Source of the DNA: Pelagomonas calceolata
Taxonomy: Eukaryota; Sar; Pelagophyceae; Pelagomonadales; Pelagomonadaceae
Direction of reading: 5' to 3'
DNA: 64,000 nucleotides
NCBI GenBank assembly: GCA_918797485.1
Contig: CAKKNE010000003.1
Location: forward strand, 4,030,001-4,094,000
Shown here: piece by piece, positions 6,177-13,973 of the stretch
Layout of the letters: the number at the start of each line of letters is the position of its first letter
Position numbering within the stretch: position 1 is the first letter of the stretch
Program-made: the position numbers and the translations under genes
Notes under the pieces: generated by a model
Told to the model about the DNA's origin: nothing
The model's database searches: none
The model's input: only the letters and a program-made list of their open reading frames with translations

Positions 6177-7413
6177 TTATTTATTTATCCCCCAGAGCTT
6201 GAGCGTCTTGTCGCCCGACCCAGACACGACGCGCCGCCCGTCCGGAAACACGGCAACGCCATAGACCTACGACGAAGACAGATCATCACAAAAGTACAGC
6301 GGACGCCGCAACGCACGGCACGCGAGTGCCCTCGCAGCGTCGCCAGGCATTTGCCGGTCGCCACGTCCCACACCTTGAGCACTCCTTCCCCGCTATTCCA
6401 AACCCCATCACAAGAAACGACGCGCCGCCCGTCCGGTGAGATGGCAACGCCCCAGACCTACGACGAAGACAGATCATCACAAAAGTACAGTGGACGCCGC
6501 AACGCACTTGATAAGAGTGCCCTTCCAGCGTCGCCAGGCATTCGCCGGTCGCCACGTCCCACACCTTGAGCACTCCTGGCGTATTAAGACTCCCATCACC
6601 AGACACGACGCGCCGCCCGTCCGGAGAGACTGCAACGCACTTGACCTACAACGAAGCCAGATCATCGCAAAGGTACAGTGGACGCCGCAACGCACCTCGC
6701 CCGAGTGCCCTTCCAGCGTCGCCACGCATTTGCCGGTCGCCACGTCCCACACCTTGAGCGTGTTGTCGCCCGACGCAGACACGACGCGCCGCCCGTCCGG
6801 AAACACGGCAACGCCCCTGACCTACGACGAAGCCAGATCATCACGAAAGTACAGCGGACGCCGCAACGCACTCTGTTAGAGTGCCCTTGCAGCGTCGCCA
6901 CGCATTTGCCGGTCGCCACGTCCCATACCTTGAGCGTCTTGTCCCACGACGCAGACACGACGCGCCGCCCGTCCGGAAACACCGCAACGCAAAAGACCTA
7001 CGACGAAGCCAGATCATCACAAAAGTACAGCGGACGCCGCGCAACGCACTCTCTCAGAGTGCCCTTGCAACGTCGCCACGCATTTGCCGGTCGCCACGTC
7101 CCAGACCTTGAGCGTCTTGTCCCACGACGCAGAAACAACGCGCCGCCCGTCCGGAAACACGGCAACGCTCGAGACCTACGACGAACACACATCATCACAA
7201 AAGTACAGCGGACGCCGCAACGCACGGCATCCGAGTGCCCTTTCAGCGTCGCCACGCACTCGCCGGTCGCCACGTCCCAGACCTTGAGCGTCTTGTCGCC
7301 CGACGCAGACACGACGCGCCGCCCGTCCGGAAACACGGCAACGCCCCACACCTACGACGAAGCCAGATCATCACAAAAGTACAGCGGACGCCGCAACGCA
7401 CGTAGTCGGAGTG
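6177..7413 (-). repeat. Tandem exon-intron WD40 array A (about 176-bp period)
   Basis: Seven units, each a 126-nt exon (138 and 141 nt in two units, 90 nt in the last) plus an intron. Introns: 7352-7401, 7176-7225, 6998-7049, 6822-6871, 6646-6695, 6458-6507, 6267-6316. All are 50 nt except one of 52. They share donor GTGCGTTGCGGCGTCC and acceptor CTTCGTCGTAG. The units with longer exons carry extra residues in the loop before LKVWDVATG. Confidence 0.9.
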
Positions 7414-11124: not shown

Positions 11125-13973
11125 TGCCCTTCCAGCGTCCGCAGCTCGACGAGCTTCGATGGATCGAGTTCGAAAAACGGCATGAACCGCAGGTCGCCGC
11201 GCGCCACCGTCGCGACCGCGCTCGCGTCCCAGATCGACTGCAGCACCTTCATCGGTTCGGGTTCCGACGGGGTGGTGGCGGCGTCCGCGTCGACTGCAGC
11301 CTTTTCCGCCACAGGCGCGTCGACGGCGCCGTTTGGTGACGCCTCCTGTGCGCCGTCACTACCGCGCGCAGGTGCCGAAGACGCTTTGCTAACAGCAGTA
11401 GCGTCGCCATGAGTCGCAACGGGTGCCGAAGTCTCTTCAACCACAGCACCGACAACATCGTCCGCCGCCGTCTCCGCCCGATTCCCGCGCTCCGCGGCAT
11501 CACTATAACCTCCACCAGCGACCAGCTCGACGCGCCCCAGGAACTCGAGCCACCCGCCCGGCAACGCTTCATTCACGACAGCAACCGCGAGCTGCGCGCG
11601 CGTCATCGCGCGATACAAACGCGACCGCGTCTCGAGCACGCCCGCGCCGCGATCGATGACTTGGTCCAGTCCAACGCAAATAACGACGAGCCGTTCCAAA
11701 CCGTCCATGTTATCCACACTATCGACAACAAGCAGCTGCTTCGCGTCGGCGGCGCGCGCCTCGGTGTCACCGCGCGGCAAGACCGCGCTCGCCGTCGCCG
11801 CGTCGACGAGCTCGAATCCTCCCAGAGCGCGAGCGAGCGGCTCGCGGAGCTTCTCAATAAATGCTTCATCTGGCCCGACGACCGCCACGCGGTCATCCAG
11901 GTCCTCCAAATCCACGAGCTGGCGCCGGATGGCCGCCAGCGCCTCGACGACCTCGCGCGCATAGGTCTCGCCGGCATCGTCGCCTTCAGATGTCGTAAAG
12001 ACCCTCGCCACGAGCGGCGGCCCCGCTGATGCCGAATGCGTCGACGTCTCGGCTTTGCGCCCGGCCTCGAGCTGGAACGCGGCGGCGCCCGCGACAATGC
12101 GCTTCGTCGAACGGACGACCTCGGATAGCGTCGCCACGACGACGTCCTGCTCCTGTGGCAGTTCCACGAGCGAGCGCGCGATCTCATCCGGACTTTGCAT
12201 CGCTGCCGTCGCCTGCGAGGCGTCGCCGAGGAACAAGAGGCTCGATTCGGCAGCACCAAGCTCCGCGAGCTCCGATCGAAGCGAGGAGTCGCCCACGAGG
12301 TGGTGGGCCTCGTCGACGACGATGAGCGCGTACGTCGTGGCCTCGACACGCGAATTCCCAAACATGAGCCGCCGTCGCCCGCCCGCCGCCTCGACGTGGA
12401 CGCGCCGCGGCCCACTCGAAAACGGCGCCACCAACACGTGCACGCGCTCCACAACATGCTCGGCAGACTTGCGCGACGCGACGACGAGCCACTTGCAGAC
12501 AAAGAGCGCCAGCGCTTCGTTTCGCGCCACGAAAAGGACCGTCGCATCGGGATCTTCATTCAGCACCTGCACCACACGTTGGACAGCAACGAAGGTCTTC
12601 CCACCGCCCGCGGGTGCGAGCAGCACCGCGACCTTTGCGCCTCGCACTTCCGTGAGCTTCTCGCGCTGATGCATCGTCAGCTTCGCGAACCGCATCATGA
12701 TCCGCGCGTAGCACTCCATGAACGCGCCCCGGTCTACGTGGACATCGACGCTCTCGACTCGGATCTTTGCGTCCGGCGGCGCGCCCAGAGAACTGTCGGA
12801 GTCTCCCGCGAGGAAGCGCTCGTTTTTTAGCAGACACCTGCCGCTCTGGCTCATCGACGCGCTAAAGCCCAGCTCCTTCATCTTGTCGCTCGTTGCGAGC
12901 TTCTCCGCGAGCTGAGAGGCGTCGTGGGGGAGCGCGGCGTTGATCGCGGTCTCGAAGGAGCCCTCGAAGAGCACGGCGTCGCGCAGCCGGGCGAGGGCGC
13001 AAACGTCGGCGATGCCTAGCCGAACGTGCGCGTGGACCGCGCCGCCGGCGTTGTACACGTTCGCCACTTCGCAACCCGCGGGCAAGGCCTCGTCCAAGGC
13101 ATCCTCGAGCACCACGACGTGGCCGCACGCGTCCAGGATCGACTGCCCGCCGTCCGCCGCTAGACACAGCACCTGCTCGCTCTCGAGGTCCAGACCGTCG
13201 ATGGCGCGCCGGAGCGCCTCGTCGGTTCCTTTTTCGAGCACGCGTTCCACGTCGTAGACCTTGTGGGCGTGACCCTTGATGTTTTGGATTTGACGCAAAT
13301 TGAGCTGGAGTTCACCTATGAATCCCGTGTCCGCCACCTCGACGAACAACTTCATATCTCGATAGCCCGAGTCGTGCTTGTGCGCGAAGAACGCGTCCTT
13401 GCAGCGCCGGACGGTGAGCCCGTCGATCGTCCCGCGAAACGCCGAGGCAGCCGTGTTCAGGGCTTCCAGCGAGTCGAAGAGACCCGTGGCGCGCTCGACA
13501 TCAACTACTCGCGCCACGTCGCCCTCGTAGTCGTTCTCCGCCTTGTCCTTGATGCGCTCCACCTTTTTCGTTGGTCCGTGCACGTACTCGCCGCCCGCCT
13601 TCGTCACGAGTCCCTCGAGGGCCGCATGCAGCGCGGCGCCGTGGCGGCTCGCCATGTCGACGAGCGCGCTGGGGGTGTTCGCGGGCAGCGCGCACCGCGG
13701 CTCCGCCTCGTGGAAGTCTTCCACCAGCGCGGCGCACGCGTCGCGCAGTTCGTCGACGGCGGCGCCCTTCCTCGCCGTGTACGACTGCCACCCCGCGACG
13801 TAGCGCTCCTTGATGCGCTCGTTCGCGCCGTCCACGACTTTTCGCACCTTGCCGCGGTCGCAGCTCGCGACGTCGAGGCTGCCGCGCGGCGTGCGCGGGA
13901 CGACGCGGGCGAAGTCCTGCTCCAGAGCCTCTGTGAGCTCCTCGACGTCGATGAAGCTGGCGCCGGCGCCCAT
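9925..13973 (-). CDS. RelA/SpoT-like / SF1 NTPase / 7x WD40 receptor-like protein
   Basis: Eight exons, 1232 residues. Start at 13973 (MGAGAS, a myristoylation-type N-terminus); an upstream in-frame Met at 14006 would add 11 residues. Residues about 165-250 resemble a RelA/SpoT nucleotidyltransferase: [20 protein letters not shown], then GELQLNL and [10 protein letters not shown]. Residues about 425-800 form an SF1 helicase-type NTPase: Walker [11 protein letters not shown], Walker [14 protein letters not shown], and YRAMTRAQ. A low-complexity linker leads to [19 protein letters not shown]. Exons 2-8 (10939-11064, 10763-10888, 10587-10712, 10411-10536, 10235-10360, 10059-10184, 9925-10008) each encode one WD40 blade, all phase 0. 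Ends KTLKLYAC. I know of no family with this order. The RelA/SpoT call is moderate; the NTPase and WD40 calls are strong. Confidence 0.82.

Follow-up and report, generated by a model that had tools for sequence, protein, structure and literature searches.

The 64,000-nucleotide stretch of Pelagomonas calceolata DNA analyzed here (hereafter the window; contig CAKKNE010000003.1, positions 4,030,001 to 4,094,000) carries two genes, A and B, head to tail on its minus strand, whose predicted proteins join different signalling fronts to the same C-terminal seven-blade WD40 propeller. An initial annotation had described the pair as receptor-like genes with one WD40 blade per exon, and its coordinates, repeat length and phase for the two genes were correct. 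The gene models, derived as spliced open frames and given in window coordinates, are as follows.

6177..9303, minus strand: gene A, predicted spliced open frame of 924 amino acids (aa) in 8 exons, start codon at 9303, stop ending at 6177; probably helical N-terminus, protein kinase and seven-blade WD40 propeller
7402..9303, minus strand: gene A exon 1, with the front, the kinase and the last outer strand closing the propeller
6177..7401, minus strand: gene A array, blade exons between seven predicted introns
7401-7352, 7225-7176, 7049-6998, 6871-6822, 6695-6646, 6507-6458, 6316-6267, minus strand: predicted introns of gene A
9925..13973, minus strand: gene B, predicted spliced open frame of 1232 aa in 8 exons, start at 13973, stop ending at 9925; RSH-fold domain, SF1 helicase and seven-blade WD40 propeller (fold search and Pfam)
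11115..13973, minus strand: gene B exon 1, 953 aa, beginning MGAGAS, with the RSH-fold domain at about aa 98-260 and the SF1 helicase at about aa 415-812
9925..11114, minus strand: gene B array, blade exons between seven predicted 50-nt introns
11114-11065, 10938-10889, 10762-10713, 10586-10537, 10410-10361, 10234-10185, 10058-10009, minus strand: predicted introns of gene B
10713..10888, minus strand: reference 176-bp unit used for the genome search, a 126-nt blade exon with a 50-nt intron

Blade arrays, their distribution and predicted splicing

All intron junctions of both genes are in phase 0, and every internal exon is a multiple of three, as had been claimed for the exons. Each blade exon ends in TL.GHS.., with the intron two codons past GHS. 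The last outer strand (TLEGHS) comes from exon 1, while exon 8 contributes inner strands only, and the ring would therefore close as seven blades, so that the description of seven WD40 blades, one per exon, is upheld for both genes on the predicted open frames. Two other claims held in part. The near-identical introns are in phase 0 throughout, but one of those predicted in gene A departs from 50 nucleotides (nt) (lengths 50, 50, 52, 50, 50, 50 and 50 nt); and a 176-bp unit per blade agrees with the arrays recovered independently by Tandem Repeats Finder, but two gene A blade exons measure 138 and 141 nt instead of 126. WD40 matches above the Pfam cut-off are present in the window, and Rfam returned nothing at its gathering threshold across window positions 5500-14800.

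The distribution of the reference unit was determined by searching the assembly (32.4 Mb, eight contigs). For strain RCC100, the accessible sections of the genome paper describe six nuclear contigs, one plastid and one mitochondrion, as well as a 393-kb duplication common to the ends of contigs 1 and 5 (PMC9481584). At least 66 unit matches were identified (match counts are lower bounds), 65 of them in eight loci and the last a 56-nt relic; other genes thus end in the same unit, as had been proposed. Besides A and B, the loci lie on contigs (C) 1, 6 and 3 at C1:3.88 Mb, C6:0.71 Mb, C3:1.67 Mb and C3:0.84 Mb, plus a C1/C5 pair at 0.264 Mb, which falls inside the known duplication and reduces the eight loci to seven independent ones. 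Because it duplicates L044, the C5 copy (L043) does not enter any of the unit statistics. Seven introns and seven blades are predicted at 8/8 loci of this one genome, and internal exons are multiples of three at all eight, bar one 181-nt exon in the C5 copy. That blade exon of L043 (C5:263000-272900), with a frameshift relative to C1, reflects either decay or assembly error; the C1 and C5 copies are separated by numerous small differences, of which some may be errors of assembly, and were not used to measure turnover. The relic (L045 4827-4882; C4:3177326-3177381) preserves 56 nt of the WD40 unit and follows a propeller-less kinase paralogue at a distance of about 350 nt downstream, as if an array might have been lost at C4:3.18 Mb.

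A protein search with spliced gene B gave 5026 matches, 120 of which were listed. Among these, the Aureococcus anophagefferens protein P0025 shows the same architecture, 50% identity over the whole length and seven blades (counted by eye; a regular expression caught four), with a different blade consensus (TVKV and LAGHS, versus TLKV and LEGHS, LKGHS or LQGHS in Pelagomonas). The P0025 model drops residues at 5/6 blade junctions and resumes at or beside V1; gaps ending there suggest an intron acceptor at about the same codon. The front of a second Aureococcus protein, P0088, is identical to that of P0025 at 749/783 positions (703/723 past the first 60 aligned columns), yet despite this near-identity its blade residues, in five annotated blades, differ, the two being alleles or paralogues. 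A metagenomic relative of B, P0001, is identical in 895/946 front positions and in 54/74 over the segment that starts with the final six residues of exon 1 and takes in the first-blade read-through. Four of the six metagenomic proteins inspected read into a similar intron right after the GHS.. end, the remaining two, P0004 and P0011, having different ends; P0055 ends in another domain, and P0003 has three diverged blades without introns first.

We infer from sequence that the seven introns of each gene are spliced. A GT...AG intron can be drawn at 49/49 junctions, although the scan accepted only GT...AG and these ends are no independent evidence. Across the seven independent loci, a length of exactly 42 codons is shared by 29 of the 42 internal blade exons, and the length variants are in frame in 13/13 exons, whereas only 1/12 intron variants differ from 50 nt by a multiple of three (Fisher P = 2.7e-6). 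Since lengths may be shared by descent, a test counting distinct lengths was added, with 7/7 exon lengths in frame versus 1/5 intron lengths (P = 0.010). In a genome WD40 search scoring 150 of 632 candidates, 18 of 149 WD40 matches contain a stop, and all 18 lie in loci of the seven-blade family; none of nine other WD40 stretches (eight genes, L001 and L004 being one) forms a tandem array of period of at least 90.

It appears highly improbable that the introns remain unspliced, or the arrays are pseudogenes, and that the proteins end just past the front. Published models of the C1/C5 pair (P0027 and P0079) do stop within or just after the intron 1 region, without a propeller, and the 181-nt exon of the C5 copy shifts the frame. 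The pipeline behind those models, however, hard-masked tandem repeats for gene prediction according to the accessible part of the paper, in the main text of which the term WD40 is absent (PMC9481584). A related array exists in Aureococcus, framework pN (nonsynonymous differences per site) is about 0.3 of pS (the synonymous counterpart), and junctions can be drawn throughout, with the proviso given above; it was on the contrast between exon and intron length variants that unspliced or decayed arrays were rejected as the principal explanation.

Genes of this genome contain 0.45 introns on average, and intron length peaks near 210 bp (PMC9481584); against this background seven consecutive introns of 50 nt are conspicuous. 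Repeated insertion of introners, mobile intron-creating elements, into the blades would account for near-identical introns; introners have been described in the pelagophyte Aureococcus (PMC9860276, as excerpted), and their length there equals the P. calceolata peak (PMC9481584). This origin is scarcely credible nonetheless. The introns here are 50 and not 210 long and always occupy the same codon boundary, and 52 of 58 matches to a 19-base intron core (at most 3 mismatches) lie inside arrays, the other 6 all having 3 mismatches and the reversed control also giving 6. With no copies dispersed in unrelated genes above that control, introners were rejected.

Variation and exchange among blades

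Variation was analyzed per codon in 29 of the 49 blades of the seven loci, 7 terminal blades and 13 of length other than 126 nt being excluded. Within these blades, all exactly 42 codons long, the entropy is focused on codons 2, 3, 18, 20, 37, 41 and 42, where pN is 0.52 and pS 0.41, compared with 0.049 and 0.167 at the remaining codons. Codons 2, 18, 41 and 42 are the most variable, their first two bases differing in 66% (62-70) of comparisons, which is close to random; for comparison, the 50-nt introns diverge by 7.4% (5.9-9.1) and fourfold framework sites by a mean of 14%. Framework residues D9, G10, R11 and R12 are invariant. The four-residue combinations are distinct in 38/38 canonical blades, a set from which the 11 of 49 blades without the SxD pattern are excluded.

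The positions of these codons can be compared with those of HET-E, in which, according to the excerpted source, four strongly selected codons (7, 9, 25 and 27) are paired around conserved codons 8 and 26 and map to the top of the modelled propeller, in the d-a loop and b-c turn (PMC1805685). Subtracting 7 yields codons 42, 2, 18 and 20 here, flanking V1 and D19, a correspondence by spacing and loop and not by sequence alignment. By hand arithmetic, the chance that seven random positions out of 42 include four named ones is about 3e-4. On pN and pS, divergence and spacing, there is an apparent excess of variation at four codons matching the HET-E top-face set. The resemblance to the HET-E/NWD genes noted initially is in this sense borne out, the four positions (by spacing) being among the variable ones.

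The arrays show concerted evolution: they have been homogenised between chromosomes, and their introns with them. Introns differ as much within a locus (0.085) as between loci (0.084; permutation P = 0.67), and 23 identical intron pairs are found between loci and 4 within. Framework pS is 0.139-0.187 between loci (five pairs) and 0.125-0.172 within loci (five loci), while front pS for four of those pairs is 0.28 (B with C1:3.88), 0.45, 0.54 and 0.56. Homogenisation of the introns along with the framework implies exchange at the DNA level. Over all arrays, introns (0.074) are on average more conserved than the fourfold sites of the adjoining framework (0.14), perhaps through splicing constraint or as a recombination anchor.

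In 22 rows, variable sites more than 10 bp apart are linked no more than by chance. This suggests conversion in short tracts, or recurrent change, instead of whole-blade swapping. An exact match of at least 90 nt occurs in one of 28 array comparisons. On these two results, the proposed swapping of whole blades at the introns is unsupported. The companion proposal, that blades are gained and lost, likewise found no support in the constant seven introns and blades of all eight loci; one Aureococcus homologue is annotated with seven blades and a second with five.

Concerted evolution alone would explain near-identical units, and A and B could then be ordinary WD40 scaffolds in which a duplicated, conversion-homogenised array leaves some surface residues unconstrained and drifting neutrally. 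Consistent with this, the variable codons also show elevated synonymous differences, and a handful of fourfold framework sites are as high as 0.49-0.70. We regard this as unlikely, since neutral codons should then differ about as much as introns or the fourfold mean, whereas the four top codons reach 0.66 against a ceiling of 0.75, and since the variable set holds the four HET-E sites and not surface turns generally, as the invariant D9 to R12 illustrate.

Fronts of the family

The claim that the fronts are unrelated is supported by Pfam, motif and fold evidence, with kinase, SF1 helicase or RSH-fold fronts across the loci. Kinase fronts are found in gene A (PF00069, E = 7.4e-42, aa 332-588, Pfam scan) and at C3:0.84, whereas gene B and C1:3.88 (the start of which was placed at an internal ATG, MGAGSS) combine an RSH-like domain with an SF1 helicase. 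A helicase follows a coiled-coil-like N-terminus at C3:1.67 and accompanies an RSH-like domain at C1:0.264, and at C6:0.71 the front is just an RSH-like domain, identified from its motif and from some genome frames common with the gene B search, not by Pfam.

The gene B helicase matches PF09848 (28.8 bits, cut-off 24) and PF13604 (32.8 bits, cut-off 27), and its Walker A, DEAH, DASQ and YRAMTRA motifs are invariant in 11 sequences, a profile shared with Schlafen group 3 and other SF1 helicases. In contrast to Schlafen group 3, an RSH-fold domain precedes the helicase in place of a Schlafen core, which is absent from Pfam matches up to E 0.1. This synthetase fold was recognized in the gene B model, with RSH proteins making up 9 of the 50 rows listed in a second fold search, and probably corresponds to that of CapRel, Tas1 and ordinary alarmone synthetases; Pfam RelA_SpoT (PF04607) has no match up to E 0.1. 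Compared with small alarmone synthetases, CapRel and Tas1, the gene B domain is a putative enzyme that lacks the Pfam match, is eukaryotic and is fused to a helicase and a WD40 propeller. An nSTAND_NTPase5 match in gene B (20.3 bits) is under its cut-off of 34, and no NACHT or NB-ARC chain was noticed among the fold-search rows listed, which excludes nothing. RSH members mostly start MGxxxS, which we take to be a myristoylation-like motif and which suggests membrane attachment.

A kinase paralogue of gene A (L048, C3:1.126 Mb) has an MLKL_N-like N-terminus at 25.3 bits, just under the cut-off of 27. For gene A itself such an N-terminus was not adopted, with E = 0.15 only and nothing convincing from two-sequence-profile and paralogue PDB searches; a single-sequence model of its exon 1 (mean predicted local distance difference test score, pLDDT, 40.8) was not used. 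PADLOC, given six of the seven fronts, matched kinase fronts (e.g. mad6) by the kinase domain only, and we did not count these matches as evidence of membership.

The fronts are modular, in that their relatives elsewhere in the genome terminate in different sensor-like modules. FIST domains conclude a protein that shares 72% identity with the C6 front over the latter's first 288 residues, and two RSH-like proteins on C1 carry tetratricopeptide repeats (TPRs). At L050 (C6:453500-462500), an SF1 helicase akin to that of gene B, with a similar linker (WD.S...FMPF), is followed by RCC1 repeats and not WD40. Beyond the family loci, RSH-like domains are widespread in the genome: one search gave 24 matches and another added 21 (E no higher than 0.001, many of them weak), and most lie within long open frames. 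A viral or bacterial origin was rejected: the intron core has no match in viral_contigs and the gene B array none in phage records, and a front profile gave pattern matches in 33 viral and 73 prokaryotic stretches with no confirmed relative.

Known systems and interpretation

A close parallel is provided by the fungal NWD genes HET-E, HET-D and HET-R of Podospora anserina, which in the excerpts available likewise have near-identical C-terminal 42-residue WD40 repeats and undergo concerted evolution within and between loci with different fronts, and whose wider family of NOD-like receptors includes PKinase and RelA_SpoT effector domains too (PMC1805685, PMC2873952, PMC4986451). Variability at four corresponding codons, by spacing, is a further likeness (PMC1805685, as excerpted). 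In Pelagomonas, however, no NACHT or NB-ARC was found, an SF1 helicase or a kinase taking their place; every locus of the one genome has seven blades, whereas fungal repeat number is described as highly polymorphic; a short predicted intron bounds every blade; and codons 41, 3 and 37 also vary. The statement that no algal system of this form had been described does not stand as worded, since brown-algal ROCO-LRR genes, in stramenopile algae as are the NB-ARC-TPR genes, already have one repeat per exon in constant phase according to the accessible text (PMC11378527), which also gives positive selection on predicted binding residues in ROCO-LRR (and, as cited there, NB-ARC-TPR). Those exon-shuffled receptors differ in having leucine-rich repeats (LRRs) or TPRs on a ROC-COR or NB-ARC core, with 72-bp exons in phase 2 in ROCO, as opposed to a closed seven-blade WD40 ring in phase 0 with RSH, SF1 or kinase fronts and 50-nt introns homogenised between loci. 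Diversified near-identical WD40 repeats (fungi) and one repeat per exon (brown algae) are thus known kinds; their combination on RSH, SF1 or kinase fronts without NACHT in a pelagophyte was not found in the literature searched, nor, among its listings and abstract beginnings, was any description of hypervariable WD40 genes of pelagophytes.

Taken as a whole, A and B are probably members of a family of intracellular recognition receptors in pelagophytes that is diversified in the germline and follows the logic of HET-E, though lacking NACHT, a reading that we hold with moderate confidence. The receptor-like architecture proposed initially is supported by the same predicted module on different signalling fronts and by the pattern of variation, which is the strongest evidence and strengthens the idea. 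In such a receptor, the seven variable blades would form a composite binding surface for a changing partner, such as a pathogen or non-self protein, and binding would be relayed to the front, in B via the SF1 ATPase to a putative RSH-fold nucleotide or tRNA pyrophosphokinase and in A to the kinase. Activation of the front would arrest growth or kill the cell. Short-tract gene conversion would keep the fold uniform and reassort the variable residues, while selection would hold blade count at seven.

Several observations weigh against this reading. Codons 3, 37 and 41 are variable but outside the HET-E four, 41 varying more than 20. Fourfold sites are uneven, mostly 0-0.3 but 0.49, 0.54 and 0.70 at codons 5, 24 and 7, and, as the variable codons have an elevated pS (0.41), the variation may stem from local mutation or from old divergence; recurrent mutation, as opposed to conversion, could account for the missing linkage beyond 10 bp. 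Paralogues may be involved in the comparisons with Aureococcus and with metagenomic proteins. As regards the fronts, the Pfam scan of all seven returned no NACHT or NB-ARC up to E 0.1, the gene B model is of middling quality (mean pLDDT 62), and 0 of 50 rows listed in the first Foldseek search with it were RSH. The gene A kinase reads HRDLHPGN, without the usual lysine.

A diversified receptor need not serve defence against parasites. HET-E itself is an allorecognition gene, and the diversity pattern does not name a ligand, so that recognition of conspecifics (mating type or self recognition) or matching of intracellular partners could produce it. The alga is unicellular, however, and we know of no somatic fusion in it; moreover, the fronts resemble defence enzymes, the RSH fold matching CapRel and Tas1 (as well as ordinary alarmone synthetases) and the helicase passing the Schlafen group 3 cut-off. 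This alternative seems to us quite unlikely.

Three other frames in the window may be recorded. Between A and B, on the opposite strand (about 9690-9859, plus strand), lies a short thioredoxin-like frame (GGVGFYAVDVDAAKPVSQAHGVSSMPTFVFFKGG...), by eye perhaps a last exon. About 40 kb from the receptor pair, a 792-aa open frame (53112-55490, plus strand) carries a TIR domain (TIR_2, E = 9.4e-14) and a SAM domain, an immunity-like architecture. A 1076-aa frame (47037-50267, plus strand) consists of tandem DUF285 repeats (E = 5e-118) of FNQDIG type, visible in the DNA too.

On the preferred reading of A and B as diversified receptors, these genes suggest an undescribed recognition system in very abundant plankton. 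More tentatively, and at somewhat less than even confidence, a unicellular ocean alga may have an innate immune repertoire drawn from one genome-wide blade pool, with interchromosomal short-tract conversion, top-face codons near saturation and exchangeable effectors that include a membrane-anchored RSH-fold enzyme coupled to a Schlafen-like helicase, the logic of HET-E having arisen without NACHT, in intron-bounded blades of fixed number. Standard annotation can hide such receptors, as in the two published P. calceolata models without the sensor. If the reading is true, receptors, variable residues and candidate effector enzymes could be listed from one genome, and hypervariable propeller receptors would not be confined to fungi, the algal ones being diversified at corresponding residues but using another switch and a ring of constant size.

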